NCBI GenBank assembly: GCA_903951425.1
Contig: CAJBBX010000151.1
Location: forward strand, 1 to 41,023
Direction: 5' to 3'
DNA from: an uncultured Chthonomonas sp.
GTDB lineage: Bacteria; Armatimonadota; Chthonomonadetes; Chthonomonadales; CAJBBX01
DNA: 41,023 nt
Every line of letters starts with the position of its first letter. Within the stretch, counting starts at the first letter, position 1. Both the position numbers and the translations under genes were made by a program. The notes beneath the pieces are model-generated. The model had not been told where the DNA came from. It did not search any database and saw only the letters and a list, made by a program, of their open reading frames with translations. Positions 7,582 to 22,793 of this stretch are shown here, piece after piece.

Positions 7582-10149
7582 ATGCCGACCCGGCTGTATA
7601 CCCTGACGGCTCTTCTGGTTCTGGCGGCTTGCTCCGCATCGGCGCAGCGGCCCCAGACGACGGGCACGTACGCCGATCGTACGGGCGCCAAGCAGCCCTG
7701 GACCATCACGGGCAACAACATGCTCGTCTGGAACGGCAAGCCCTGGACGCCTGTGGGGGGCATCTTCTGCCCTGCCGGTCTGGCGGACAAAGCAGACGAG
7801 GCCGCCTGGCAGCGTGATGTGGCGGATCTGGCCCTGCTCAAGGGCAAGGGCCTCCTCGATGTGCTGATCGAGCCTGGCCGCCCCCTCCCGGACGTGAGCC
7901 CCGCCGCGCTGCAGCGGCTGGTTGACCTACTGGACGCCGACGGCTTCCGCTACGGCCTCGGGTTCGGCGGCGGCGTGGCAAAATCGGCCTCCGGCTATGT
8001 CGTGCGGCCGGCCGCCTATCGTATCCCCGGAGTGCGCGAAGGCGCCGACACCTCCTGGGACGCCCGCGACGCCGACGTGGCGCGATATGTCCTGGTCGAT
8101 GACCGCGACGGTACGCAGATTGTGCAGGACGGCCTCCTCCGTGCCCGAGACGGCTCGTTCACGGTGATCGCCAGCCCCAGGGCGGGCGAAGGCTCCGTGG
8201 CGATCCTCTACCCCCACAAGACCGCGAACTCAAGCCGCGAAGGCGCCCTGCCGGATGTCTGGTCATTCTATGACGCCTACCGGGACCGGTTGATCCAGAC
8301 CCTGTCGGCGGTCAAGTTCGGATCCGGCCTGCGCTTCTTCATGGACCCGCTGGCGCAGCGCGTCTCCGTGGCAGGCGAGGCCGACTACCTGTTCCCCGAT
8401 TCGCGAGCCTTCCGCACAGAGTGGGAGGCCTATCTGGGCCGACGCTACTCTACGGTGGAGGAACTGCTCACGGGTTGGTCCATACTGGATCGTGAGATCA
8501 CCTCCGTGCGGGAGGCCGCCTCGCTCTGCCCCATGTGGGCCGACCAGAAGGGCATCCCGTTCCTGATGGACGTCGGCACCGGACGCCGATACCAGGTCAA
8601 CCCGGTGGAAAGCAAGTTCTGGTCGGACCTGCGCGAGTGCAGGAACGACTCGCTCGTCTACTACATGAACGGCATCGCCGACCTACTGAAGCGCGAGATC
8701 GCCAACGTGCCCGTGATCCATACGCACACGGCGCAGCATCGGCTTTTCTCGACGCCGGGCCGATCCGGCGGGTTCGATGGGCTGGGCATCGCCGCCTATG
8801 GCCGCGGTTCTGCGCTGGCCACCGCCGGCGCCGACGCCGCATACGGCCAGGCCACCGAGGCGTCGCATACCCTCTGGGTGCTGGTGAGCGAGACCATGGA
8901 AGTCACCACCTCGCCCAAGGCGCAGCCCGGCTACGGCTCGCAGGACACGATGCAGTACGACCTCGACTGGTTCCGTAGCCTCGGCGCCCGCGGCATCTTC
9001 GTCAACGCGTTCCGCGCTCCGGCCGGCGAGAAGTGGCGCAACTACTCTCTGCTCGACGTGCCGAACCAGCTGGACTGGCTCAAGGGCTTCGCCGACCGCA
9101 TGGCCCGACAAGCTACCGACGCCGCCTCGGCCCCCAAAATGCTCCCCTACCCCGCCTCGGCCGCCGGAATGGTGAAGTCAGGGCCCATCGGCAGCAAGGG
9201 CGTCTGGTGGGTCCCGTCGCTGGCCAAGGGGCAGGCGGTGGACTACGGAGCCGCCTACGCGGGCTACACCATCTCGCTGCCCGAGGGCGACACGCTCGTC
9301 CTCTGGTCGCAACGCGGCGACCGCGAGACCCGCCTCAGCGTGGCCGATCCGCGCAAGCTCGCGGCCACAACGCCCGAAGGTGTGCCGGTACCGATGAAGC
9401 TCGATCTCAAGGGACACATAGCCAAGCTGGTCATTACGGAGCAGCCGACCATCATCCGCACCGGCGGCCAGGACCTGCTGCCGGTCGAGGCCGCTGAGGA
9501 TGCGCTGAAGCAGCTGCGGCAACTCGTCGATCAAGCCGCGGCCCAGCGACTACCCGTCCAGGAGATTCGCTACCAACTGCAGCGCGCCGAGACCAAGGTG
9601 AAGGTGCGCGACCTGACCTTCGGCCTGGCCATCGCGCAGCAGGCCATCGCCGCCGTGGTCGACCTCCTGCAGCCGTTCACGTGGCGCGAGGCCGAAACCG
9701 CGGACTCCTCCACCTTCGGCGACTCCGCCCGCGACGAGGGCGCCTCCGGCAAGGCCTTCCTGACGCTCGACACAGACACGCGCCCTGCCTCCGAGGGCTA
9801 TACCGTGCAGTACAGGATCACCGTCCCGGCCGACGGCAGCTACACGCTCTGGGTCGCAGCGTCGCCGCAGACGCCCAATGCGAGCCGCTTTGCATGGACC
9901 ATCGACACCCGGGTCTCCGGCTCCAGCGCCGACGGCTCCGCCGTGGGCTCTTCCTACCTCGGAGACCGCTTCGTCTGGCAGAACCTGGGCAAGGCGCAGT
10001 TGGCGCGCGGGCCGCACACCATCACGCTGCGGGTCACCGACCGGACCGCCGCCACGAGCCGCTACTTCCTGGCCATGGACGCCGTCCTGCTCACACGCCA
10101 TGCGTTCACGCCCAGGGGTACGGCCAAGCCCAGCCCGGACGGCCTGTAG
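7582..10149 (+). CDS. Secreted/lipoprotein GH42-like glycoside hydrolase with C-terminal carbohydrate-binding-like domain
   Basis: An 855-residue protein. The N-terminus has a lipobox, LAAC with Cys17, followed by an ASAQ that could alternatively be a type I site, so it is exported and probably lipid-anchored. Residues about 45-520 resemble a GH-A clan barrel of the GH42 kind: NGKPWTPVGGIFCP at the start, EWEAYLGRRYSTVEELLTGW as in GH42 enzymes, and WVLVSETMEVTTS and RGIFVNAFRAP late in the barrel. The acid/base and nucleophile cannot be assigned safely. Residues about 690-845 begin FTWREAETADSST and include YTVQYRITVPADGSYTLWV, a beta-sandwich like those of CBM-type modules. It is the first gene of a likely four-gene operon. 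A glycosidase role is inferred from fold resemblance. Confidence 0.6.
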   Translation: MPTRLYTLTALLVLAACSASAQRPQTTGTYADRTGAKQPWTITGNNMLVWNGKPWTPVGGIFCPAGLADKADEAAWQRDVADLALLKGKGLLDVLIEPGRPLPDVSPAALQRLVDLLDADGFRYGLGFGGGVAKSASGYVVRPAAYRIPGVREGADTSWDARDADVARYVLVDDRDGTQIVQDGLLRARDGSFTVIASPRAGEGSVAILYPHKTANSSREGALPDVWSFYDAYRDRLIQTLSAVKFGSGLRFFMDPLAQRVSVAGEADYLFPDSRAFRTEWEAYLGRRYSTVEELLTGWSILDREITSVREAASLCPMWADQKGIPFLMDVGTGRRYQVNPVESKFWSDLRECRNDSLVYYMNGIADLLKREIANVPVIHTHTAQHRLFSTPGRSGGFDGLGIAAYGRGSALATAGADAAYGQATEASHTLWVLVSETMEVTTSPKAQPGYGSQDTMQYDLDWFRSLGARGIFVNAFRAPAGEKWRNYSLLDVPNQLDWLKGFADRMARQATDAASAPKMLPYPASAAGMVKSGPIGSKGVWWVPSLAKGQAVDYGAAYAGYTISLPEGDTLVLWSQRGDRETRLSVADPRKLAATTPEGVPVPMKLDLKGHIAKLVITEQPTIIRTGGQDLLPVEAAEDALKQLRQLVDQAAAQRLPVQEIRYQLQRAETKVKVRDLTFGLAIAQQAIAAVVDLLQPFTWREAETADSSTFGDSARDEGASGKAFLTLDTDTRPASEGYTVQYRITVPADGSYTLWVAASPQTPNASRFAWTIDTRVSGSSADGSAVGSSYLGDRFVWQNLGKAQLARGPHTITLRVTDRTAATSRYFLAMDAVLLTRHAFTPRGTAKPSPDGL

Positions 10150-10183
10150 GTCCACCGGCCGCCATGCCGGAGTTGCATACCCC

Positions 10184-12682
10184 ATGAGCCGCACCGCCTT
10201 CTGGGCCGGTGCGGCCCTATCCATGGCCGCCTCCTGCGCAGGCGCAGCCATGGACAGCGTCGATCTCGGCTCACGGATGTCGCGGGCGGCGCACAGGGTC
10301 ACCTACACGGCCTCCGTCCCCACCCGGCGGGCCCTGACCGTCGGCGCAACCACCCACGACGCTTCGGGCTTGACGCTTGAAGCGGGCGGTTCCGTCCGGG
10401 CGTCTCTGAAGGCCTGCAGGGGCGAGGGGCCCGGCTGCATCATCGTGACACTGGCCACGCCGCCTGAGCGCTACGGCAAGCTACAGCGATGGTCCGTATC
10501 CGTGGCCGGCGGCCCGGCGTTGGTGATCAGCGACCGCGACCCCGGCGCCGGCACTCGACGCAGCGCGTTCCTCGACGCCCCTGCCGGCGTTCGCGGGCTC
10601 ACCGTGGAGGTGCGGCGGCTGCCCGGCAGCGAGTGCCCCATCACGGTGCAGAGCATCAGTTCGGCGCCGCTGCACGCTCACCTCACCAAAGCCCTGGCGC
10701 CCATGGCGGTCAGCTTCCTCACGCCGCAAGGGTCGGGTTACTCGACCACCGTCGATGAGGTGCGAGCCGTACTGGGCCGTGTGCCGGTGAGCCCGTTCCT
10801 CCAGGCCCAGGCCGCGGTGCTGTACAACTTCTGCGTCCGCGACGCCGCCCAGAACCGCGCCGAGATCGCGCGCCTCGTGGGCCTCGCCGAGCAGGCCAAC
10901 GTACCCTTGCGGATCGCCTTCCAAATGCACTGGGCCGGCGCTCCCATCGGCGTCCCGGACGGCGCCGGCGGCACCTTTATGGACCTGCCCTACCAGCAGA
11001 TCACCTACGACCCCGCCGACAAGCTGGAGGCGCCGGGCGTGAAGGCGCTACTCGGCGACCTCTACCGACCGGGCTTCGGCCTCAGCGTGCCGAACCGGTG
11101 GTCCAACACCGCCTGGCTTACCATGAACCACCCGCGGCTGAACCAGCTCCGAAGGGCGCGCCTCTCCGACGCGGTTCGGGCGTGGCGCGACGAGCGGCTC
11201 CGGCTTGCCCGCGCGGGCCGGGCGCGGCTGCTCCCAGGCGAGCTCTCCACGGGAGAGGAGACCGTCTACTGGGCGGCCGACGTGGATGACAGCGCCTACA
11301 CGGCGGCCAACGGCGGCGCCGCACGAACCCAGCTGGCCGCCGACTTCAACCCGTTCACTGCCGCCGACGCATTCCGCGACGGGGTGACGCTGGACCCGCG
11401 CGACGGACTGAGCAAGGTGGAGAAGCTATGGCTCCACGGGAACCTGGCACGCTGGCAGCAGACCATTGTGGAATGGATGACCGGCGCCCTCGGTTCCGAG
11501 CCCATGCAAGCCGCCGATGATGAGACCGCCTACGCCGGCGACCTGGTGCGCCTGAACCTCTACACCGAGCCCTACGCCATGCCGCTCTACCCGCTCAAGG
11601 GCGTCACCCGCTTCCAGCCCGGACTGGAGCTCGGGTACGTCGAGGGCGGCCGGAGCGGCGGCGAGTACTGGAGCGGCGCCCAGATGCTGCCGTGGCTCCT
11701 CAAGTCCCGCGAGACGGGCCGGACAGCGCTGCCGAATCTCGAATGCACCGGCGCAGGCGATGACCAGGTCACCGCCTGCCTGGCCGCGGCCTACGGCACC
11801 GGAGCGCGCTTCAGCACACTGTACAACTGGCAGCACAGGCCGGGCATCACCGAGGTCATGAAGCGCCTGGCCCGCTGGATCGAGAACCCGCACGGGCTGT
11901 CATTCCTTCCGACTGCGGCGCCTACGACGACGCGTATGCGGACCTATACGGCCGCACCCGACGCCTACGCGGTCAACAGCGTCCGGTTCTGGTTGGTTCC
12001 GGGCGTTGAGCCGCCGGCGGGGCTATCGGTCACGGTGACGGACCCCGCTACCGGCACATCGGTAACCGTACCCGCTTCGGCCGCTACTGCAGGGACCGGG
12101 CCGCGGCGCTGCGATGCCCTCCTGCCCATGCCGTTTCATCAGGAACCGGGCAAGGACTACCGGGTGCAGATTAGCTGGGACGGCGCCCCGGCCCCGTGCC
12201 TGGCGGCATCCGCCGACGGCATGCCCGCGATGGGGGTGGCCATGGACCTGCAGGCCGAGCGGCGCAAGAGCCTCACGCTCCAGGACATCCGCGACGCGGC
12301 CAACGCCATCGCCACGGCGAAGCAGCGACTGGCTCCCTACCGCCAGCCGCCCCATCCGGAGGCACAGCTCAGGGCAGCCCAGCGCGCCTACGAAGAGGGT
12401 GACGTCCAAGGCGCCTACACGGCCGCAGTGCGGGCCATCCAGTCCGCCGTACCGGCCGCTTATACGGTCGCGGCGCCAGGCTCCATGCTCCGACCATACC
12501 CATTGCGCCTGGACTGCCCCGCTGGGCCGATCGAGGTGATCATCAACGAAGCCTCGCCGCGCCGGACGTCGGTGCAGGCCACCAGCGCCACCGGCGGCCC
12601 TGTAACGCTGATCCGCGGCCGATCACGGGTCAAGGCCGTGCTGACGCCGGGGGTATCGGCGCAGCTCACCATCATCCACTGA
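10184..12682 (+). CDS. Large secreted protein of unknown family (possible glycan-active enzyme)
   Basis: An 832-residue protein starting 34 bases after the previous gene. The ATG at 10184 is chosen because it begins a good signal peptide (SRTAFWAGAALSMAASCAGA); the longer open frame upstream overlaps the previous gene. A beta-rich N-terminal part (about 25-165, with LQRWSVSVAGG and SECPITVQSI) precedes a long middle region with barrel-like elements: ANVPLRIAFQMHWAGAP, NRWSNTAWLTMNHPRL, LLPGELSTGEETVYWA, ALPNLECTGAGDDQVTA. The C-terminal third has a beta-domain (VTVTDPATGTSVTV) and a helical hairpin (IATAKQRLAPYRQ). I do not recognise the family. The acidic residues in GELSTGEE and NLECTGAGDD would suit a hydrolase active site, but that is inference. 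It is probably co-transcribed with the GH42-like gene. Confidence 0.7.
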   Translation: MSRTAFWAGAALSMAASCAGAAMDSVDLGSRMSRAAHRVTYTASVPTRRALTVGATTHDASGLTLEAGGSVRASLKACRGEGPGCIIVTLATPPERYGKLQRWSVSVAGGPALVISDRDPGAGTRRSAFLDAPAGVRGLTVEVRRLPGSECPITVQSISSAPLHAHLTKALAPMAVSFLTPQGSGYSTTVDEVRAVLGRVPVSPFLQAQAAVLYNFCVRDAAQNRAEIARLVGLAEQANVPLRIAFQMHWAGAPIGVPDGAGGTFMDLPYQQITYDPADKLEAPGVKALLGDLYRPGFGLSVPNRWSNTAWLTMNHPRLNQLRRARLSDAVRAWRDERLRLARAGRARLLPGELSTGEETVYWAADVDDSAYTAANGGAARTQLAADFNPFTAADAFRDGVTLDPRDGLSKVEKLWLHGNLARWQQTIVEWMTGALGSEPMQAADDETAYAGDLVRLNLYTEPYAMPLYPLKGVTRFQPGLELGYVEGGRSGGEYWSGAQMLPWLLKSRETGRTALPNLECTGAGDDQVTACLAAAYGTGARFSTLYNWQHRPGITEVMKRLARWIENPHGLSFLPTAAPTTTRMRTYTAAPDAYAVNSVRFWLVPGVEPPAGLSVTVTDPATGTSVTVPASAATAGTGPRRCDALLPMPFHQEPGKDYRVQISWDGAPAPCLAASADGMPAMGVAMDLQAERRKSLTLQDIRDAANAIATAKQRLAPYRQPPHPEAQLRAAQRAYEEGDVQGAYTAAVRAIQSAVPAAYTVAAPGSMLRPYPLRLDCPAGPIEVIINEASPRRTSVQATSATGGPVTLIRGRSRVKAVLTPGVSAQLTIIH

Positions 12683-12700
12683 CCGCAGGAAGGGATGCCC

Positions 12701-13816
12701 ATGGATCGCGCCACAACCGGCCCGCTGGATGCCTCCAGGATCAGGGCCGCCGACGAGCATCTGCGGCGCGGCCTCGACGATGGGGCCTATGGCGCCGCCG
12801 TGCTGCTCGTGGCCGTCAGGGGCCACGTCGCCCACCGTTGCGTCATGGGCGAGCTGCATCCGGGCGGTCCTGCGTGCCGGATCGACAGCCTCTTCGACCT
12901 CGCCAGCCTCACCAAGCCCGTCACCGCCATGGCCGTGCTGACGCTGGTGGAACAGGGCGCCGTGCTCCTTACCGACCCCGTATCGCTCCATCTGCCCGAA
13001 TCCCAGGGAACGGCGCTGGGCGGCGTGACCCTGGTGCAGCTCGCAACGCATGTCTCGGGTCTGCCGGCATGGATACCCCTCTACGAGCATGGGTACGGCG
13101 CCGACGCGGCAATCGACGCCATCGTTCGTACCCCGTTGGCTCGTGAACCCGGCGCAGGCTACGAGTACAGCGACCTGAACTACGTGCTGCTGGGCCAGAT
13201 CGCCGCCGGGGTCGCGCACCTGCCGTTGGAGCGACTCGTAGCCGAGCGCGTGGGCCGTCGGCTCGGCTGGCGTGACACGGGCTACCTGCCCGGCAAGGCC
13301 CTGCGTGAGCGCGCCGCCGCCACGGGCAACTGCCCAGGCCGACCGGGGCGCCTGCTCCACGGCGAGGTGCATGACGCCAACGCGCACTTCATGGGCGGCG
13401 TCTCCGGCCACGCGGGCCTCTTCGGCACGGCCGAGGAGCTTATCGCGCTGGGATGCAGCCTCCTGCCCGGAGCGGCGCGCCCCCTGCTCTCCGCCGCAGC
13501 CGCGCGCCTGGCGACCACCAGCCGCATCCCGGCGTCGCTGGGTGGCCAAACGGTGGGTTGGTTTGCGTCGCCGAACCCGATGCTCCCACGCGGCGACCTG
13601 CTGTGCGACACCACTTTTGGCCACACCGGCTTCACGGGGACGCTGCTCACCGTCGATCCCGAGGCGCAACTCGTGGTGACGCTCCTGACCAACCGCGTCA
13701 TCGACGCCCGCAACAACGGGGCGATCCTGCGCACTCGCAAGCAAGTACTCAACGCCGTGGCATCGGCGCTCACGGGCGACCGGAGCCCCCAAACAACACT
13801 GGAGGCGGAACGATGA
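12701..13816 (+). CDS. Class C beta-lactamase-fold serine hydrolase
   Basis: A 371-residue protein of the beta-lactamase/transpeptidase-like family. The catalytic S-x-x-K is S69-L-T-K72 in LFDLASLTKPVTAMAVL. The second motif is YEYSDLNYVLLG (Tyr156; the usual Y-x-N has Asp at the third position), and the third is FGHTGFTG with His replacing Lys of KTG. Such proteins act as esterases, D-aminopeptidases or peptidoglycan-related hydrolases more often than as lactamases. No signal peptide is evident, so it is probably cytoplasmic. The ATG at 12701 is preferred over 12695 because GGAAGGG (12688-12694) sits at the right distance. It follows the unknown gene by 18 bases and its stop overlaps the next start (ATGA). 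The substrate is unknown. Confidence 0.88.
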   Translation: MDRATTGPLDASRIRAADEHLRRGLDDGAYGAAVLLVAVRGHVAHRCVMGELHPGGPACRIDSLFDLASLTKPVTAMAVLTLVEQGAVLLTDPVSLHLPESQGTALGGVTLVQLATHVSGLPAWIPLYEHGYGADAAIDAIVRTPLAREPGAGYEYSDLNYVLLGQIAAGVAHLPLERLVAERVGRRLGWRDTGYLPGKALRERAAATGNCPGRPGRLLHGEVHDANAHFMGGVSGHAGLFGTAEELIALGCSLLPGAARPLLSAAAARLATTSRIPASLGGQTVGWFASPNPMLPRGDLLCDTTFGHTGFTGTLLTVDPEAQLVVTLLTNRVIDARNNGAILRTRKQVLNAVASALTGDRSPQTTLEAER

Positions 13817-15069
13817 GAACACTGGCGCTGGCCGCCCTCTTGACGGCGACCGGCCTCGGCGCCAATGCCGATCTCTTTCGGATGCAGTGGATGCCCACCG
13901 GCGCGGCCGTCGTGGCCGGCCGCACCGCCATACAGCGGCTCCCCCTCGCCGCAGCGCCTCCAAGCGGGGTGCGCAAGGGAACCATGCCGGGGGCCCGGTA
14001 TGCCCAGCTCAGGCTTGGTCCCGCGTCCGGCAAGACCGCCTTCACCATCATGCTCGTGGAGCCTGCCGGGAGGCCTGCGCGCCTCTTCGTCGACGCTGAT
14101 GCAGACGGCAACCTGACCAACGACGTCCCGGTGGCGGTGCGCGCCTCGCGCTTTACCTCCCAGGGCGAGTCCCTCACGCAGCTCTCGGCCCAGGCGAGCC
14201 TCCGCGTGCCTTTCGGGCCCAACACCCGCAGCGTGGGCGTCATCCTCTATCGTTTCGCCAAGGGCGATCCAGCCCACGAGGACTTCGCCAACGCGCTGGG
14301 TGTGCAGCCCGACTTCGGGTCATCCGGCGAAGCACGCCTGGGGACATCCACGCACCGGGTGATGCTCATCGACGACTCCTGTGCGGGCAACTTCACGGCG
14401 GCCAATGCGTCGCTGCGCCTGCTCATCGATGTGAGCCAGGACGGCCGATTCGACAGCGGCTACGAGCTCTTCTCCTGCAAGGAGCCGTTCAACATCGGCG
14501 GCACGACCTATGAAGTGAAGTTCATCAACCCCGACGGCTCGACGCTGGAGATCATCAAGAGCGACCGCATCGCCGACGAGGCCGTGAACCCGTTCGCGCT
14601 GCGGGTCGGGCGCAAGGCGCTCCCGTTCGATCTGGAGACGCTGGACAAGAAGCTCGTGCGCATGCCGGGCGACTATGCGTCGCAGGTGGTGCTGGTGGAG
14701 ATCTGGAGCCTCGGCATGCCCGATGCGAAGGCATGGTGCGCCACGACGGCGGCGATCAGGAGGAAGCACAAGGCCGACGGCCTGGCCGTGCTGGGCGTGA
14801 ACGTGGACGGCATGGGTAAGGAGGAGGCCATCCGCGCCTTCTGCAAAGAGCAGGGCATGGAGTGGCCGCAGATCTACGACGGCCAGGGCGCCGACGCCGA
14901 GGCCGCGCAGCTGATGGGATCGCCCCGTCCGCCCTACCGGGTTCTGATCGACGGCGCGACGGCGAACATCCTAGCCATCGGCGCCATGCTCAACGACCAG
15001 AAGCTGGAGGCAGCCGTCGCCAGGGCCCTGAAGGCCCTCAAGGAGCCCAAACCAACCGCCGCGCCGTAG
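13813..15069 (+). CDS. Secreted thioredoxin-fold protein lacking the CxxC active site
   Basis: A 418-residue exported protein (signal RTLALAALLTATGLGANA). An N-terminal beta-rich region contains FVDADADGNLTND, an EF-hand/dockerin-like loop, and LLIDVSQDGRFDSG. FNIGGTTYEVKFINPDGSTL follows, and the C-terminal third is a TlpA-like thioredoxin fold (ALPFDLETLDKKLV, VVLVEIWSLGMPDA, LAVLGVNVDGMGKEE, PPYRVLIDG). The redox motif WATWCGPC of relatives reads W298-S-L-G-M-P-D-A here, so both cysteines are lost while the cis-Pro region is kept. The domain order is the same as in the protein at 21498-22793, which has the cysteines. The ATG at 13813 overlaps the hydrolase stop by 4 bases and has GGAGG 7 bases upstream. 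It cannot be a standard disulfide oxidoreductase; a binding or scaffold role is possible. Confidence 0.85.
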   Translation: MRTLALAALLTATGLGANADLFRMQWMPTGAAVVAGRTAIQRLPLAAAPPSGVRKGTMPGARYAQLRLGPASGKTAFTIMLVEPAGRPARLFVDADADGNLTNDVPVAVRASRFTSQGESLTQLSAQASLRVPFGPNTRSVGVILYRFAKGDPAHEDFANALGVQPDFGSSGEARLGTSTHRVMLIDDSCAGNFTAANASLRLLIDVSQDGRFDSGYELFSCKEPFNIGGTTYEVKFINPDGSTLEIIKSDRIADEAVNPFALRVGRKALPFDLETLDKKLVRMPGDYASQVVLVEIWSLGMPDAKAWCATTAAIRRKHKADGLAVLGVNVDGMGKEEAIRAFCKEQGMEWPQIYDGQGADAEAAQLMGSPRPPYRVLIDGATANILAIGAMLNDQKLEAAVARALKALKEPKPTAAP

Positions 15070-15078
15070 GAGCCGCCG

Positions 15079-16338
15079 CTACCGCAGGTCGCGAATGCTC
15101 GCCGGAGAGAGGCAGGCCGTCCCCTTGCTGAGCCACTTGCGGCCAATGCTCCGGACCTCGGCCTCGGTGGCCGCGGAGCCCAGCAGCACGCCGCAGGCGC
15201 GCCGCTCGGTCCATCGGTTCAGCTCCATGTCCTTGCACGTCTCCGCGTAGTCCGAGCCGAACGACTTGATCCGCCTGCCCGGCGGCACGAAGAACTGGCC
15301 GATGGACCCGAAGCTAAACGAGTATGGCGATCCGGGCTTCCAGTAGGAGGTCTGCGAGTTGAGCCAGCCGATGGGCCAGTGGTCCCAGATGCCCTGGCCC
15401 CACTCGCAGCCACCTTCGGCGCCCTTAGTGCAATGGTCGATCAGTTGGTTCCGGTCCGCCGTGAAGCCGCTGTTCGGCCCCAGGACGGCAAAGAGCAGCT
15501 TCTCCTTGAATGGCAGGATCAGCGCGCAGCCCCTCGACCGTGAGATGGCCGCCAGCGTAGCGTCGTCGCCCTTGCGCCGCACGCCGCCCTTGTCATCCCA
15601 GAAGAGGTCATAGCGCCGCGAGCTGTAGAGGTCGAGGGCGGTGTGGGTGCGGCAGTCGCCCTGCTTCCGGTCGCGTGGGAAGAGGTCAGCGATGGTGGCG
15701 CCCACCGGTGCAACGCCGAACAGCTCCACGGGCTGGGTGCTGTAGCCGACGATCTCGTCGGGCATGAGGCTCTCGTACGACATGCGGCGCAGGATCAGCC
15801 CGTTCGGATAGGCGAAGTAGTCCTCCGTACCGCGCAGCCGGGGCCTGGTGTCGTCCTTCATGTTCACGCAATGGTAGGTCCACCGCACCCAGACGCGGCG
15901 CCCGCCCGCCTCGACGATGTCGACATAGCTGTTCCGCTCCTTGCGTCCGGGATCGTTGAACAGTTCCGCGTCGCCCAGGTTCCCCTCGAAGAACTGGTTG
16001 CACATCGCAGCGCCGCTGGGTAGCTCCAGCAGCGGGCAGTAGCTCGCCTCGTGGCTGAAGATGAAGCGCTCCGGGCGATCCTTCCATAGCACGGCCACCG
16101 CGCGGCGCGCGTTCATGTCGGCATGCGGCGGGCTCGGGGCCATGGGGCCCTCGTAGTGGCCGGGAGCGTAATCCTCCACCTCCACCGCGCCCACGGCGGA
16201 TCGCAAGTGCGCCGCCGCCTGCGCCAAGGGGACCGGTTGCGGCTTGCGGAACGCGGCATCAGGCACGGCCTGCCCCGCCGCGACCTCAGCGATGCCGACG
16301 CAGACTGCCGCCGCCAGGACGATCGCAAACCTATCCAT
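15079..16338 (-). CDS. Secreted protein of unknown family
   Basis: A 419-residue exported protein with signal peptide MDRFAIVLAAAVCVGIAEVA and cleavage near AAG/QAV. It is rich in aromatic and charged residues, with well-conserved-looking blocks: RPERFIFSHEASYCPLLELP, NQFFEGNLGDAELFNDPGRK, VWVRWTYHCVNM, YPNGLILRRMSYESLMPDEI, DLYSSRRYDLFWDD and GIWDHWPIGWLNSQ. Nine or so cysteines in the mature part suggest disulfides in the periplasm. I do not recognise the family and no catalytic motif can be named. It converges with the cysteine-less redoxin gene (9 bases between stops) and is divergent from the heparinase-like gene. AGGAGG precedes the ATG at 16338. Context among glycan enzymes suggests glycan or surface work, by association only. 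Confidence 0.85.
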   Translation of the reverse strand: MDRFAIVLAAAVCVGIAEVAAGQAVPDAAFRKPQPVPLAQAAAHLRSAVGAVEVEDYAPGHYEGPMAPSPPHADMNARRAVAVLWKDRPERFIFSHEASYCPLLELPSGAAMCNQFFEGNLGDAELFNDPGRKERNSYVDIVEAGGRRVWVRWTYHCVNMKDDTRPRLRGTEDYFAYPNGLILRRMSYESLMPDEIVGYSTQPVELFGVAPVGATIADLFPRDRKQGDCRTHTALDLYSSRRYDLFWDDKGGVRRKGDDATLAAISRSRGCALILPFKEKLLFAVLGPNSGFTADRNQLIDHCTKGAEGGCEWGQGIWDHWPIGWLNSQTSYWKPGSPYSFSFGSIGQFFVPPGRRIKSFGSDYAETCKDMELNRWTERRACGVLLGSAATEAEVRSIGRKWLSKGTACLSPASIRDLR

Positions 16339-16488
16339 GTCCCCTCCTCACCGGAACCCTCGGCCGGCAGCGCCGCATACCACGTGCTACTGACGGAGAT
16401 CATACACCACGCCCTCGCGCGTGGTAGCCTAACGCCAATCAGCGCACGGCTCACTGGCCGTGCGGTCAGCCACGGGAGGGTCGGCCCC

Positions 16489-19257
16489 ATGCGCGTCATC
16501 GCCGCGTTGCTGTCGTTGGTCGGCGTCCTGGCCCTGACGGCACACGCGCGGGCCGACAGCATCCCCACGCTGGATGACATACTAAACGCGACGCAACTCG
16601 ATGCCCACTCCGGACCCGTGCCTCGTCTGCCCAACGTCGCCTCGGCGGCTATCGCGCCGGGCAAGCCGCTCGTCCAGCCGTTCCGCACCGGTCCCGGCGT
16701 CACGCGCATCGTCCGCGTCGCAATCTGGATGGCAGGCTGGAACGAGGCGTGGACGCCGGACAAGACGCTGGTCTGCACGCTGGTCGACGCCGAGGGCGCC
16801 CATGCCGGCGCCGCCCTGGCGCGCGCCACGGAGCCCTGGAGCCGCCGCCACTGGGAGGATGCCGTCCACCTTCTCCACCTCGATGCCGCCGCGCTGCCGA
16901 ACCATGCGTACCGGTTCGAGCTGTCTGCCGAGGGTGGCGACGGGATCCTCGACGGCGTGGCCACCGTGGGCGCCAACGCGGCGGTCTGGCACCAGGTCCA
17001 CGTCAAGCGAGCTGGCGACCGTGACGCGCTCTTCGCGCAGGCGTTCTCCTACTTCGACCTGACGCGGCCGCAACTGGCACGCGTCCGTTCGGCCGTCGCC
17101 CGGCGCGACTGGGGGTCCGCCCAGCGCGGGCTGGTGGCCTACTTCGAGGGCCGATCGACCTTCCCCAAGCGCCCCGCAACGCCCCGCTCCGACCCGAGGC
17201 CCGCCACCGAACAGGAACTCCTTCGGGACGCCGACCTGGTCTGCCAGGGCAAGTGGCGCGCCACGGACGAGACGGTCGACCTGGGCCCGCGCTGGAACCA
17301 CTTCGCGGCATGGCGCACGCGCGGCGGCGTGGGCCTGACGCGTACAGGACTCCGCGGATGCCTCGCCACGGCCTACCGCCTCACCGGCGACGAGAAGTAC
17401 GCTAGGACCTGGGACGCCATGCTCCGCTGCTTCCTCGCCGACATGCCCTCGCCGCTACGCTCGGGGGCCATGGCGCCGGACGCCAAGGACGTGCCGCCCA
17501 CCATGCCCGCCGGGATCGGCGGCGGCTCCATGTGGGCCTCCCTCTCCATCGGCGCGCGCATGGGCCACGGATTCGCCTACTACACCGCATTCAAGGACTC
17601 GCCCGGCTTTACGCTGGACACCCGGTTCGCCTTCATCGTCAACCTGGCCGAGATGGCCGAGGTGTTGGAGCGGATGAAGGGCGGCGGCAACTGGGAGGCG
17701 CAGAACACGTCGGCGCTCTTCGAGTTCGGGCAGGAGTTCCCCGAGCTACGCAAGGCCCGATCATGGATCGAGCGCGGCTTCGCCGGCGCCGCGGCCAGTT
17801 GCCTCGAGAACACGACCCCGGACGGCCCGCTGAAGGAAGCCACGGTCAACTACCACCTGCTCAGCCTTAACCGCTACCTCACGGTGCTGGAGCAGGCCGG
17901 CAAGGTGGGCCTGAAGCCGCCGCAAGCCATGCGGGACCGTGTGGAGAAGATGCTGGAGTACGTCATGGCCGCCACCATGCCCGACTGGCAGCTGCCCATG
18001 TGGGGCGACAGCAACCCGCCCTCCGACGGCCTGTCGCTACTGGCCAGGGGCGCTCGTTACTACGGGCGGTCGGACTTCCAATGGGTCGCCACCAAGGGCC
18101 AGGCCGGCAAGCGGCCGTCGGTGACCTCGGTCGCCTTCCCGAACGCCGGCTACTTCATCATGCGGACCGGCTGGGACCCCGACGCACGGTTCGCTATGTT
18201 CCACAACGGCCACTCCAGTGCGCACGGCCACGCCGATCAGAACTCCGTGGTCCTCACGGCCTACGGCGAGCAGATGATCATCGACCCGGGCATCTACGTC
18301 TACGGCACCTCCGAGGCCCGCGAACTGACCGCCACGCGCTCGCACTCCACGGCGACGCCGGACGGACGCGATACCGTGAACGACGGCGGGCCCAGCACGT
18401 TCAGCTCCGGCCGCTTCGCCGACTACTACGACGGCGTCAGCGCGGGCTACTCCCGGCTACCCCAGGCGCGCCACCGTCGGCGCGCGATGCTGCTCAAGCC
18501 CGAGACGTCCAGGAGCATCCTGGTCATGCTGGACGACTGCTGGGACGCGGAGCCGCACGAGTGGGTGACACGCTTCCGCCTTGCTTCCGGGCGCACCACT
18601 TGCGCCGATCGGGACTTCGTGTGGCAAGGGGCCTCGTCGCAGTTACGCATCTCCGGTATGAGCGGGATCTCGGGTTCGCGCGCCTTCGCGTTGGCCGCGG
18701 GCGGCTGGGAACGCAAAGCCCAGTTGCCGGTGTTCACCCTAACCACGCCGCCGCAGTCTCGGGCAACGATTGGCACCGTATTCTGGCCCACGCAAGGGAA
18801 AGGAACGGGGTCGGGCATCCCCTGGAACCGAGCAACCAGCGCCCCTGGGGACGCCCAACAGATTGCTGTGCTGGATGACTCGGTGAGCTACATCATCTAC
18901 TTCGCCGCCGCATCAGGGCCGGATGGCTTAAGACCGACCCTCCGAGGGGACTGCGAAGCCGCAGCCGCAGCCATAGACGGCGAACCGACCGGCACAACCG
19001 ATCCGCGGACGCTCCGCACCTTCGTGATGGTCGGCGGCACAAGCCTGGGCTACGGCTCCACGCCGCTGGTCTCCTGCGAGACCGAGACGGCGCACCTGGA
19101 GGCCACACGCCAGCGCGACCGCCTTGACGTCACCGTCCGCGCGCCGGGCCGGGCGCTCCGAGTGAACCCGCTCGGCGCACGCTGGATCACGGTGAACTGC
19201 GGGCCGAGGCGGCGCGTCCCGCCCGGAGCGGCGATGGTGGACCTTCCACTGCTGTAG
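16489..19257 (+). CDS. Secreted heparinase II/III-like polysaccharide lyase
   Basis: A 922-residue exported protein (signal RVIAALLSLVGVLALTAHARA). An N-terminal beta-sandwich (about 25-180) is followed by an alpha-helical toroid (about 195-520, with LGPRWNHFAAWRTRGGVGLT, NWEAQNTSALFEFGQEFPEL and PLKEATVNYHLLSLNRYL). A C-terminal Heparinase II/III-like beta-domain contains MFHNGHSSAHGHADQNSV (His579 and His581) and MIIDPGIYVYG. This arrangement fits alginate/heparin-lyase families such as PL12, PL15, PL17 and PL21, which cleave uronate polysaccharides by beta-elimination in the periplasm. Subfamily and substrate are not determinable here. The ATG at 16489 begins the signal peptide and has GGGAGGG at 16474-16480; a longer open frame upstream runs antisense into the divergent gene and is rejected. 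Confidence 0.88.
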   Translation: MRVIAALLSLVGVLALTAHARADSIPTLDDILNATQLDAHSGPVPRLPNVASAAIAPGKPLVQPFRTGPGVTRIVRVAIWMAGWNEAWTPDKTLVCTLVDAEGAHAGAALARATEPWSRRHWEDAVHLLHLDAAALPNHAYRFELSAEGGDGILDGVATVGANAAVWHQVHVKRAGDRDALFAQAFSYFDLTRPQLARVRSAVARRDWGSAQRGLVAYFEGRSTFPKRPATPRSDPRPATEQELLRDADLVCQGKWRATDETVDLGPRWNHFAAWRTRGGVGLTRTGLRGCLATAYRLTGDEKYARTWDAMLRCFLADMPSPLRSGAMAPDAKDVPPTMPAGIGGGSMWASLSIGARMGHGFAYYTAFKDSPGFTLDTRFAFIVNLAEMAEVLERMKGGGNWEAQNTSALFEFGQEFPELRKARSWIERGFAGAAASCLENTTPDGPLKEATVNYHLLSLNRYLTVLEQAGKVGLKPPQAMRDRVEKMLEYVMAATMPDWQLPMWGDSNPPSDGLSLLARGARYYGRSDFQWVATKGQAGKRPSVTSVAFPNAGYFIMRTGWDPDARFAMFHNGHSSAHGHADQNSVVLTAYGEQMIIDPGIYVYGTSEARELTATRSHSTATPDGRDTVNDGGPSTFSSGRFADYYDGVSAGYSRLPQARHRRRAMLLKPETSRSILVMLDDCWDAEPHEWVTRFRLASGRTTCADRDFVWQGASSQLRISGMSGISGSRAFALAAGGWERKAQLPVFTLTTPPQSRATIGTVFWPTQGKGTGSGIPWNRATSAPGDAQQIAVLDDSVSYIIYFAAASGPDGLRPTLRGDCEAAAAAIDGEPTGTTDPRTLRTFVMVGGTSLGYGSTPLVSCETETAHLEATRQRDRLDVTVRAPGRALRVNPLGARWITVNCGPRRRVPPGAAMVDLPLL

Positions 19258-19419
19258 GATCGCGGAAATGCAGCCGAAAGGGGTATCCGGACGCGCCGAC
19301 ACCGGGGTATGACGTTCAGCAACATCAGCCTGCCCGAGGAAGCGAACCCAGGGCGGGCCGCCGCACTGCGACAACCCATCACCACATGGCGGCTCCCGGC
19401 TGACGGGGGCGCCGAGGAC

Positions 19420-21426
19420 ATGCCACCCATGCCGACCGTGCAACCGCCCTACTTTGGCGCCGCCTACTATCCCGAGGACTGGCCGCTCGAGCAGATCGAC
19501 CGCGACATCGAGCTGATGCTCGAGGCCCGCATGAACTGCATGCGGATCGGCGAGTTCGCCTGGAGCTCCATGGAGCCGACCGAGAACGAGGTCCGCTTCG
19601 ACTGGCTCCATACCGTGGTCGAGAAGCTGGGTGCCGCAGGCATCGCCGTCATCATGGGCACGCCCACGGCCACGCCGCCGGCATGGCTGACGGAGCGTTA
19701 CCCCGAGATCCTCGCCGTCGCCGACAACGGCAAGCCGCTGCAGCACGGCGCCCGGCGCCACGTCTGCCCGACCAGCCCCGTCTACCGCGACCTTTGCGAG
19801 CGGATCGTCGACAAGATGGCGCGGGAGTTCGGCCGGGACGACCGCATTGTGGGCTGGCAGATCGACAACGAGGTCTACCCCATCGGCTTCCGCCCCACGC
19901 GCCCTTGCTGCTGCCCGAGCTGCTACGAGCGGTTCCTGCAGGCCATGGCGAGCAAGTTCGGCTCCATCGAGGCGCTGAACAAGGCCTGGTGCCTCAGCCT
20001 CTGGAGCCAGGAGTACCAGTCCTTCAGCCAGATCCCCCTGCCCCGTGCCGACACCTGGCACCACCCGTCGCTGCTGGCAGCCTATTCGCACTTCGCCAGC
20101 GACTCCTATGCCGAGTACTGCACCCACCAGGCGCGGGTCCTGCGGCGGCACGTGACCCAACCTATCGGTACTGACATGATGCCCTTCAGCGGCGTCGACT
20201 ACACGGACATGCACCGCGAGATGGACATGGTGCAGTTCAACCACTACAACGACGTCGACAGCCTCTGGCGCGCGGGCTTCTGGTTTGACTTCATCCGGCC
20301 GCTGAAGTCGGCGCCTTTCTGGAACACAGAGACGCAGGCCAACTGGAACGGCAGCGTCTGCATCAACGGCGGCGTGAAGCCCGAGGGCTGGTGCCGCGCC
20401 AACAGCTGGCTCCCCATCGTCCTGGGCGGCGAGGCGAACCTCTACTGGCTCTGGCGGCAGCACTGGGCCGGTCAGGAGCTGATGCACGGCGCGGTTGTCA
20501 GCACCGCGGGCCGGCCGCTCCCGGCGTTCAGCGAGGTGCAGGCCATTGGCGATGGCCTCAGCCGTAGCGGCGACTTCCTGCGCGCCACGCGGCCCACGCG
20601 CAGCGGCCTAGGGCTCTTCTACTGCCAGTACACGGCGCGGATGCTGCAGCACCAGCCCATCATGCCGGGGTTGGACTACGAGGGCGCGCTGCAGGAGCGC
20701 TGGTGGCGGCCCCTGACGGCGGGAGGATGGCGGCCGGACGTGATCGGCTGCGACGCCGACCTCTCGTCCTACCGGGTCCTGGCGGCGCCGCTACTGCTGA
20801 CGCTGGAGCACGAGGGGCTCGCCGACCGGCTGCACGGGTGGGTCCGTGCAGGTGGCACACTCATCATCGGGCCTCTGGCCGATGTCCGCAATGTTGAGGC
20901 CGCCAAGTATTGGCACGCCCCCTTCGGCCGCCTGGAGGAGTGGACCGGCGCGCGGGCGATCCATTGCGTGCCGGGTTCGCCGGTCCCGCAGCCCATCGTC
21001 GGCGCGGACGGCGCTCCGCTGGCCGCCTCGACCTGGTTCGACGGGTTCGAGCCCGGACCGTCCAGCGTCCATGCTACGTACCCCACAGGCCCGAGCGCGG
21101 GCCTCGCGGCCATCGTACAGGCCACGGTCGGAGCGGGCTCGATCCTCTGGCTCGGATGCCTGCCCGAGGCTGCGGAACTGCCGCGCATCATGGCCCTGGC
21201 CGTGCCCGATGGCACCGTGGGCCGCACCGACTGCTCCCCAGGCGTGGTCGCCGCGCCGCGCACGGGCCCGGGCGGCCATGGCATGGCCGCGGTGGAGGTG
21301 GATGGAACGTCGGGCTACGTGACCCTTCCCGAGCCGATGACCGACCTGCTCAGCGGCCGCGTGCTTGCCGGCAAGGTCGAGATGCAGCCCTACGGCGTGC
21401 TCGTCGCCCGCGCCGACGGGGCCTAA
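19420..21426 (+). CDS. GH42 beta-galactosidase
   Basis: A 668-residue retaining beta-galactosidase of family GH42, without a signal peptide, so probably cytoplasmic. The family opening FGAAYYPEDWP is followed by RIGEFAWSSMEP. The acid/base is Glu151 in WQIDNEVYP and the nucleophile is Glu304 in FWNTETQ. A zinc-cluster-type cysteine set is visible: C116 in HVCPTSP and C163/C165/C168 in PCCCPSC. The C-terminal part contains the trimerisation/glutamine-amidotransferase-like domain (VLAAPLLLTLEHEGL, GWVRAGGTLIIGP) and a small beta-domain ending SGRVLAGKVEMQPYGVLV. Start choice is uncertain: 19420 or 19429 (both near GAGGA at 19414) suit the family, and the frame is open back to 19309. It lies 162 bases downstream of the lyase gene and is followed by a strong hairpin. 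Confidence 0.95.
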   Translation: MPPMPTVQPPYFGAAYYPEDWPLEQIDRDIELMLEARMNCMRIGEFAWSSMEPTENEVRFDWLHTVVEKLGAAGIAVIMGTPTATPPAWLTERYPEILAVADNGKPLQHGARRHVCPTSPVYRDLCERIVDKMAREFGRDDRIVGWQIDNEVYPIGFRPTRPCCCPSCYERFLQAMASKFGSIEALNKAWCLSLWSQEYQSFSQIPLPRADTWHHPSLLAAYSHFASDSYAEYCTHQARVLRRHVTQPIGTDMMPFSGVDYTDMHREMDMVQFNHYNDVDSLWRAGFWFDFIRPLKSAPFWNTETQANWNGSVCINGGVKPEGWCRANSWLPIVLGGEANLYWLWRQHWAGQELMHGAVVSTAGRPLPAFSEVQAIGDGLSRSGDFLRATRPTRSGLGLFYCQYTARMLQHQPIMPGLDYEGALQERWWRPLTAGGWRPDVIGCDADLSSYRVLAAPLLLTLEHEGLADRLHGWVRAGGTLIIGPLADVRNVEAAKYWHAPFGRLEEWTGARAIHCVPGSPVPQPIVGADGAPLAASTWFDGFEPGPSSVHATYPTGPSAGLAAIVQATVGAGSILWLGCLPEAAELPRIMALAVPDGTVGRTDCSPGVVAAPRTGPGGHGMAAVEVDGTSGYVTLPEPMTDLLSGRVLAGKVEMQPYGVLVARADGA

Positions 21427-21433
21427 CCAACGG

Positions 21434-21467
21434 AGCGAGCCGGAGCGCATGGGCGCTCCGGCTCGCT
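21434..21467. terminator. 15-bp perfect hairpin between convergent genes
   Basis: AGCGAGCCGGAGCGC (21434-21448) pairs perfectly with 21453-21467 around a 4-base loop (ATGG). It lies 8 bases after the GH42 stop and 31 bases from the stop of the opposing redoxin gene, so it can serve both directions. No U-tract follows on either strand. Confidence 0.75.
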
Positions 21468-21497
21468 TGCCTGGCATAGGGGCCGACTCGGCCGCTG

Positions 21498-22793
21498 CTA
21501 GTCGACCTTGAGCCCCAGCTTCTTCAACTCATCCTCGACGCGCTTGTCGCCGTCCGAGAAACCCACCACCGAGGCGGCGACCTTGCCGTCCTTGCCGATG
21601 ATGTAGGTCGTCGGAATGCCGCTGACGTTGTAGAGCTTGCCCGCAATCGACTCGGCGCCGCGGCCGGCAGGATCATACGCGAACTGGTACGTGTACTTGC
21701 TCTGGTTCTCGGGCACCCACTTGGTATAGGCTTCCTTGCCGTCCCAGACGCACAGCGCCAAAACAACGGCGTCCTGCGATGACACCTTCTTGTAGACCTC
21801 TTCCAGATGCGGCATGGACTTCTGGCACGGGCCGCACCAGGTCGCCCAGAAGTCGAGGATGACCACCTTGCCCGCGTAGTCGGAGAGCTTCAGTTCGCCG
21901 CCGCCCCACTTCTCGGACGTGAAGTCGGGAGCCTTCGTCCCGGCAGCCAGCAGGGGCTTGCGCTCGGGGGCCTTGGGCGCCAGGTCCAGGGCAGGCTTCG
22001 TGGTGACATTAAGAGCGATGGTGGAGCCGTCCGGAGCCACCTGGGCCTCGTAGACCTTGCCTGCGAAGTTGAACGGGGCGCGGATGTCCAGCGTGCCGGA
22101 GCTGTACTTGCCGTCGTCGGCCATGTCGATCCGAAGCCAGACCGGCCGGGTCTTGGCCGCCTCGTCCTTGGTCGCCACGGGCTTGGAGTAGACGCCGTCG
22201 GAGTCGTTCTCGATCAGGAGAGCCTTGTGGGCCTTGCCGTCCACGACGACCGTGCCGGTGCGCGCGCTCTGCCGGTACATGAGCAACGCGTCGAGGTTGC
22301 TGAAGCGGTAGAAGGCCAGGCCGTAGTCGGCGCTGCCGGTCTCGCGCTTGCCACCGCGGGCGGCGTCGGCGTAGGACGCGCGGAGGGTGTACTCGTTGGT
22401 TCCGTACATGGTGCGCCCGCCGGAGTCCTTCTTGGCGGACCAGGCTCCGGCGCCGTCGTCGGACAGGTCGCCGTTGCGGTTCACGTCAAGGTAGATACGC
22501 CAGTCGCCGCCCTGCGGCTCGTCCACGGCGATCACATACTCGGACTTGGGGCCATTGCCCAGCTTGATCGTCGCATAGCGCGGAGTGGCCGCGTAGGTCG
22601 GCTCCTTCTTGACGGAGGCGGGCTTCTCGGCCTTTAGCTCCACACGGATGGGCATGTAGCCGACCCGCGCCGTAGTGGCGCCCTTCACATCGATGGTCAG
22701 CTTGTCCGGGGCCGCCAGGGCGGAGCCGGCCGCCAGGGCGGAGCCGGCCGCCAGGGCGGCGATCAGGCTCGCGCAGACTGTCGTTCTATGCAT
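21498..22793 (-). CDS. Secreted TlpA-like thioredoxin with N-terminal beta-rich region
   Basis: A 431-residue exported protein. The signal peptide (about residues 1-28) contains a duplicated AAGSAL block. The N-terminal region carries a calcium-loop-like YLDVNRNGDLSDDG (101-114), RIDMADDGKYSSG and FNFAGKVYEAQVAPDGSTI. The C-terminal thioredoxin domain (about 285-431) has LDFWATWCGPCQKSMPHL with the redox pair C320/C323, the cis-Pro loop VSGIPTTYIIGKDGKV and the family's central insert. TlpA/ResA-like proteins reduce disulfides in the periplasm. It is the last gene of the minus-strand unit, 52 bases after DUF1080. The same architecture without the cysteines occurs at 13813-15069. The redox domain is certain; the purpose of the N-terminal region is unknown. 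Confidence 0.92.
   Translation of the reverse strand: MHRTTVCASLIAALAAGSALAAGSALAAPDKLTIDVKGATTARVGYMPIRVELKAEKPASVKKEPTYAATPRYATIKLGNGPKSEYVIAVDEPQGGDWRIYLDVNRNGDLSDDGAGAWSAKKDSGGRTMYGTNEYTLRASYADAARGGKRETGSADYGLAFYRFSNLDALLMYRQSARTGTVVVDGKAHKALLIENDSDGVYSKPVATKDEAAKTRPVWLRIDMADDGKYSSGTLDIRAPFNFAGKVYEAQVAPDGSTIALNVTTKPALDLAPKAPERKPLLAAGTKAPDFTSEKWGGGELKLSDYAGKVVILDFWATWCGPCQKSMPHLEEVYKKVSSQDAVVLALCVWDGKEAYTKWVPENQSKYTYQFAYDPAGRGAESIAGKLYNVSGIPTTYIIGKDGKVAASVVGFSDGDKRVEDELKKLGLKVD
22714..22759. repeat. 18-base tandem repeat inside a signal peptide
   Basis: The unit GCCAGGGCGGAGCCGGCC occurs twice exactly (22714-22731 and 22732-22749), followed by a 10-base partial third copy (22750-22759). 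On the coding strand it is in frame and duplicates six residues (AAGSAL) in the hydrophobic part of the redoxin signal peptide. It looks like slippage and could vary between strains. Confidence 0.9.

Follow-up and report, generated by a model that had tools for sequence, protein, structure and literature searches.

Two redoxin-like proteins at one locus

The DNA analyzed here (the window) is the whole of contig C151, a 41,023-nucleotide stretch (CAJBBX010000151.1) of a 6.08 Mb assembly from a lake-dwelling bacterium of the Armatimonadota, an uncultured Chthonomonas sp. It encodes two exported redoxin-like proteins, A and B, whose genes lie about 6 kb apart on opposite strands (Table 1). Both open reading frames (ORFs) are present where an earlier, sequence-only reading had placed them. 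Each protein starts with a sequence resembling a signal peptide (judged by eye only), followed by an N-terminal region, called here the N-module, and a TlpA-like thioredoxin domain.

The common architecture proposed in that reading extends from end to end: BLASTP aligns A and B with 26% identity over 396 residues (E = 3e-20), a MAFFT alignment gives 28% identity, and the FN-x-x-G-x-x-YE...DGST block is found in both. Taken separately, the N-regions match at E = 6e-19 and the thioredoxin parts at E = 3e-4. The only Pfam families matched by A and B are AhpC-TSA/Redoxin and related thioredoxin families, with AhpC-TSA above the curated cut-off in both proteins; an NCBIfam scan of B gave no match. 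The two proteins are not a recent pair, since they sit far from each other on the family tree.

Table 1. Coordinates of proteins A and B, their parts, and the gene coupled to B (positions in the window).
Feature	Position	Strand	Evidence and remarks
Serine hydrolase (PF00144)	12695..13816	+	ORF, Pfam; its stop and the B start overlap in ATGA; overlap kept in loci L031 and L032
Protein B, exported, N-module and Cys-less TlpA-like domain, 418 residues	13813..15069	+	ORF; PF00578 27.3 bits (cut-off 26); orthologues 78% and 75% identical
N-terminal module of B, residues 42–258	13936..14586	+	Profile A3 E = 6e-89 (B in profile); clade-A-only model E = 1.5e-22
Asp/Gly loop 1 of B, residues 93–104 (VDADADGNLTND), end of repeat 1	14089..14124	+	Of 110 relatives: D94 99%, G99 93%, L101 90%, D104 85%
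Asp/Gly loop 2 of B, residues 205–218 (IDVSQDGRFDSGYE), end of repeat 2	14425..14466	+	Of 110 relatives: D206 89%, G211 89%
PFNIGGTTYEVKFINPDGST block of B, residues 225–244	14485..14544	+	Counterpart in A, by alignment: PFNFAGKVYEAQVAPDGST
Thioredoxin-fold domain of B, TlpA/ResA-like, no CxxC, residues 262–412	14596..15048	+	AlphaFold2 model; Foldseek, VIA
Pseudo-active site WSLGMPDA of B, residues 298–305	14704..14727	+	Aligned with WATWCGPC
cis-Proline P374 of B	14932..14934	+	Invariant in 110/110 relatives; cis position by alignment
Protein A, exported, N-module and active TlpA-like domain, 431 residues	21498..22793	-	ORF; PF00578 E = 6e-24, 84.7 bits (cut-off 26)
TlpA/ResA-like thioredoxin domain of A	21501..21953	-	PF00578; Foldseek 3gl3 E = 3e-9
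Active site WATWCGPC of A	21825..21848	-	Alignment
N-terminal module of A	21975..22649	-	Profile A3 E = 4e-86 (A in profile)

Loss of the active-site cysteines in B

The alignment bears out the earlier description of the two active sites: A reads WATWCGPC, with the CxxC inside WCxxC that marks TlpA/ResA-like thiol-disulfide oxidoreductases, whereas B reads WSLGMPDA at the same place and keeps the cis-proline. The context of this proline in B is SPRPPY, the preceding residue being proline rather than isoleucine, and the tryptophan before the first cysteine (position W301) is lost. This tryptophan is a substrate contact in thioredoxins.

The statement that B is stripped of its cysteines applies to the redox site only, since the protein still holds four (C190, C222, C309, and C344), all kept in the three orthologues and none aligned with the CxxC. 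A CxxC pair elsewhere in B would have overturned the sequence-only reading; none occurs anywhere in the protein or in its two orthologues, and on this point the reading stands. C309 and C344 lie 35 residues apart on columns where the family has mostly hydrophobic residues (M/L and V/T/I/L). We therefore reject a relocated CxxC, and no relocated redox pair is evident. B is not a peroxiredoxin in the strict sense (peroxidatic Cys, PxxxT/SxxC) either, as its aligned active-site columns contain no Cys. For B, the sequence rules out dithiol exchange at the usual site.

AlphaFold2 models were built from alignments of five sequences, some of them shared between A and B; the mean predicted local distance difference test score (pLDDT) is 59 in the B model and 53 in the A model. 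The thioredoxin part is the best-modelled region of B, with a pLDDT of about 70–84 across much of its length. Its structural matches are of the TlpA/ResA/CcmG type (4nmu by Foldseek, E = 8e-8; 3gl3 by VIA, Z 16.6, root-mean-square deviation 2.0, 132 aligned), and the model of A has the same matches. As modelled, the B domain still has the TlpA/ResA thioredoxin fold. The N-terminal parts of the two models show a comparable series of strands, which is not independent evidence because the models shared sequences; the homology of these parts rests on the sequence profiles. No fold match to the N-module is found among the Foldseek and VIA matches listed, which the thioredoxin domain fills; given also the low confidence of the N-part, these results provide no evidence for a new fold.

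The N-terminal module

The N-module is found in 101 of 291 Armatimonadota genomes and is nearly always fused to a TlpA-like domain. The fetched loci gave 117 distinct N-module ORFs, 110 of which carry a tail that is 130 residues or longer and aligns to the TlpA-like domain; these form the family set used here. A search of plasmids with the N-module profile gave no match.

Profile A3, made from eight N-regions with A and B among them, has no significant match in Pfam (best E about 0.03), NCBIfam, or PDB sequences when compared at the sequence level. A sub-threshold resemblance to the GEVED domain (PF20009), seen for four of the eight members (best E = 0.038), is not significant, and we do not file the N-module there. 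A hidden Markov model built only from the 46 N-regions of clade A, a branch of the family tree, matches the N-region of B at E = 1.5e-22, where the top-scoring of 500 shuffled decoys reaches E = 3.6, and matches the N-regions of the other Cys-less sequences at 3e-12 or better. The profile search suggested in the sequence-only reading thus confirms the shared module and finds no entry for it in these libraries; on the profile evidence, the N-module is a real, undescribed, and widespread module.

The module contains an internal repeat (residues ~62–102 versus 171–213 of B; hhalign probability 96.2%, E = 2.3e-9). Its score of 42.6 compares with 14.9 for the best of 40 column-permuted profiles. 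Each repeat terminates in an Asp-x-Asx-x-Asx-Gly loop. Two loops per protein had been claimed earlier, and this count is correct, but the two that were quoted, VDADADGNLTND from B and LDVNRNGDLSDDG from A, are the same motif taken once from each protein; the additional loops are IDVSQDGRFDSG in B and IDMADDGKYSSG in A. Compared with the EF-hand/dockerin-like DxDxDG loop, which has an acid at position 12, D1, Asx3, Asx5, and G6 are conserved and the next conserved acid is at position 11. From their spelling, the loops may bind Ca2+ or a similar ion.

Two N-module proteins, at loci L141 (genome G255, contig C26) and L142 (G179:C36), have a non-thioredoxin C-terminal part, and the module can therefore occur without a thioredoxin domain. 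Tandem same-strand pairs of N-module redoxin genes were seen at three loci, L065 (G051:C79), L089 (G052:C106), and L069 (G128:C10), the last pairing one clade-A member with one from outside this clade.

Conservation of B in congeneric species

Orthologues of B are present in two congeneric genomes, where the sites read WSLDMPEA and WSLDMPDA, giving the pattern WSLxMPxA across the three genomes. Both orthologues keep the gene order of B and the ATGA overlap with the hydrolase, along with the four cysteines. A scan of genome contigs with B as the query matched these two congeners only.

Across the three species, the ratio of nonsynonymous to synonymous substitution rates (dN/dS) is 0.225–0.27 for the whole of B and 0.07–0.10 for A. 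Within B, the Cys-less thioredoxin part (0.175–0.207) lies below its own N-part (0.24–0.30). The dN values are 0.128–0.156 for B versus 0.075–0.101 for the hydrolase and 0.028–0.035 for A. The length of B is identical in the three species and the frame is intact in all of them. By these measures, B is an intact gene under purifying selection, less constrained than A. Its redox centre disappeared long ago. As dN/dS is low and the gene order, coupling, and cysteines are conserved, both decay and sequencing error can be dismissed for B; a frameshift or sequencing error behind the missing CxxC is rejected because three assemblies agree. The earlier statements that B is translationally coupled to the serine hydrolase and is not a decaying copy are both supported by these data.

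Repeated loss of CxxC in the family

The CxxC is present in 101 of the 110 complete-tail fusions and absent from nine. The Cys-less copies are B in its three genomes, a second copy in G002 (WMMGAGPP), and one copy each in G146 (WATWDAAS), G040 (WSMEDQSS), G043 (WATSNEKS), G046 (WASWDPDA), and G176 (WSSLRQDC). A partial copy in G039 (WSMADQNS), cut off before the cis-proline, brings the total to ten copies in nine genomes. The first tryptophan is kept in 10/10 Cys-less copies and the cis-proline in all nine complete ones.

On the maximum-likelihood tree, the Cys-less label needs five changes, at least three of which are forced by strongly supported branches, and some Cys-less sequences sit beside CxxC sisters (for example, G043 with G042, support 100). 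Repeated loss is a simpler explanation than regain, which is possible in principle. Clade A (46 rows, support 100) contains no losses, versus 9 of 64 elsewhere (Fisher p = 0.01, a descriptive value uncorrected for relatedness). The tally of co-occurrence, also proposed earlier, gives an intact CxxC N-module paralogue in seven of the nine genomes that have a Cys-less copy.

Several other proteins with altered sites were seen in the same genome as A and B. A second Cys-less TlpA-like protein (C179:28644-28970, minus strand; L152/L011) has two beta-rich repeats, LolA/DUF2092-like by eye, and then a thioredoxin domain reading FYTTSEGS; a protein on C115 (L145), reading WATWCPPC, is built along similar lines. 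The membrane protein at C12:44356-44634 (minus strand; L155) has several hydrophobic segments (by eye) and a thioredoxin-like C-terminal domain with WSPASPDA instead of WCxxC, and a small TlpA-like protein at C45:16759-17109 (plus strand; L146) keeps only the first active-site cysteine (WAFWCDTW).

Gene neighbourhood

The two nearest genomes with a name in public records come from an uncultured Chthonomonas sp. (CAISJD010000082) and from an Armatimonadetes bacterium, isolate LacPavin (JAPLCQ010000098). According to tblastn, the locus is common to three congeneric species; the contigs of G002 break within the GH42 gene, between the B side and the A side. The carbohydrate-related genes of the locus encode a heparinase II/III, a GH42 protein, a 3-keto-disaccharide hydrolase, and a pyrroloquinoline quinone (PQQ)-propeller protein, with a Melibiase-like protein farther along. 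The heparinase II/III gene (window 16483-19257, between the DUF gene and GH42) was not seen in congener G003 (versus L031 8527-8859); the rest of the locus is conserved. Two further proteins without a Pfam match, at 15079-16338 (minus strand) and 9878-12682 (plus strand), are 88–91% and 81–85% identical to those of the congeners.

A GGAGG precedes the start of B at the overlap with the hydrolase stop. The hydrolase itself is a 373-residue protein in a 377-residue open frame, with almost no upstream room, and no signal peptide was seen by eye; for these reasons it and B are probably in different compartments, and it is unlikely to be a physical partner of B. The coupling was seen only in the genus of B, and the neighbours of the other inspected Cys-less genes look unrelated (judged by eye from translation starts).

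Discussion

We consider B to be an exported pseudo-oxidoreductase whose Cys-less fold has a non-catalytic role, as an interaction or scaffold domain, towards a partner in the envelope, a reading to which we assign a probability of about one half. It is favoured because B has no dithiol site, has lost the substrate-contact tryptophan, and has site loops whose conservation does not exceed that of the remaining domain. Further points in its favour are the low dN/dS of the Cys-less domain, the TlpA-type fold retained in the model, the recurrent loss of CxxC in the family, and the intact paralogues in seven of the nine genomes with a Cys-less copy. In this mechanism, the two strand-loop units of the N-module would bind Ca2+ or a similar ion and stiffen a beta-rich domain, the Cys-less fold would hold an envelope partner and carry out no dithiol chemistry, and the active paralogues of the same genome (A and a copy on contig C12) would handle thiol chemistry. 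There is precedent in ERp27 and ERp29, listed without CxxC, and in the redox-inactive b' domain of protein disulfide isomerase, which binds a partner via a hydrophobic pocket (PMC12561257).

Several observations weigh against this reading. A dedicated groove would predict special conservation of the pseudo-active-site loops, and none was found: 26 of 34 of their residues are invariant versus 90 of 118 in the rest of the domain (p = 1). Ca2+ binding is suggested by the spelling of the loops alone, and loop 1 has a pLDDT below 50 in the model. G146 and G176 have a Cys-less copy and no intact N-module paralogue. The earlier suggestion of a domain repurposed for binding is thus plausible but undemonstrated: besides the ordinary conservation of the loops and the loss of W301, the two residues that every complete Cys-less copy retains, the structural W298 and the cis-proline P374, are also expected from folding alone.

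The main rival, which we regard as rather unlikely, is that the thioredoxin-like domain is a mere spacer or stabilizer, that the N-module is the working part, and that the old active site binds nothing. The unremarkable conservation of the loops fits this, as do the changes at W301 and before the cis-proline, the unrelated site sequences of the other Cys-less copies, and the two N-module proteins that have no thioredoxin tail at all; against it, the thioredoxin part of B is more constrained than its N-module.

It is improbable that B is a pseudoenzyme regulator that competes with A for substrates or holds them. The two genes share a locus conserved in three species (save for the contig break in G002), and the frequent company of an intact paralogue points the same way, but the identity between A and B is just 26%, the tree places them at a distance from each other, their genes are on opposite strands, the substrate-contact tryptophan is gone from B, and the copies in G146 and G176 have no intact N-module partner. 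Single-cysteine or relocated thiol chemistry at C309 or C344, or a metal at M302 and C309, seems quite improbable: these residues, like all four cysteines, are conserved across the three orthologues, but both cysteines replace mostly hydrophobic family residues 35 positions apart, the domain contains 0, 1, or 3 cysteines in the remaining Cys-less copies, with none in common, and the M302 column holds D, A, N, or R in these copies. Slow decay of a domain without present function, despite a dN above that of both the hydrolase and A, is very improbable given the low dN/dS of the domain and the equal length, intact frame, and coupling in three species.

A and B can be compared with known systems. 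TlpA/ResA/CcmG-type oxidoreductases (PF00578/PF08534; 3gl3, 4nmu, 1st9, 2b1k) share the fold, cis-proline, and export with A and B, and the WATWCGPC with A, but B lacks both catalytic cysteines and the preceding tryptophan, and A and B add a 220-residue N-module outside those structures. The C-terminal region of DipZ from Mycobacterium tuberculosis (2hyx, 5cyy) joins an extracytoplasmic TlpA-like domain to another domain in one longer chain (of 333 residues in 2hyx); its match to B is confined to the TlpA-like part, and the other domain gives no evidence of likeness to the N-module. This second domain of DipZ is C-terminal and carbohydrate-binding-like. Like B, ERp27/ERp29 are proteins of a secretory compartment with a thioredoxin fold that has no CxxC, but their domains are of the eukaryotic b type, not TlpA-like, and they have no N-module (PMC12561257). 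CnoX/YbbN of E. coli, a holdase with an SXXC thioredoxin domain, also has a degenerate motif, but it is cytoplasmic, keeps one cysteine, and has a tetratricopeptide repeat partner domain (PMC11241051).

Cys-less thioredoxin folds are already known. The N-module was absent from every library searched; a phylum-wide series of CxxC losses on an N-module/TlpA scaffold was not found in the open-licence literature, and as the search was limited to such papers, the novelty is provisional. As a tentative generalization, with the odds somewhat against it, the N-module and TlpA fusions might form an undescribed exported family of the Armatimonadota whose members repeatedly lose the redox centre and keep the fold. 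TlpA folds would then be routinely converted to binding proteins with no catalytic function, in most cases accompanied by an active paralogue.

It should be noted for annotation that B clears the Pfam AhpC-TSA cut-off, yet its sequence indicates that it would be incapable of CxxC chemistry. The N-module family is sizeable, as a single phylum yields 117 distinct ORFs, and none of the libraries searched has an entry for it; the parallel losses of CxxC on one scaffold provide a natural series for asking what role the thioredoxin fold has beyond redox chemistry.

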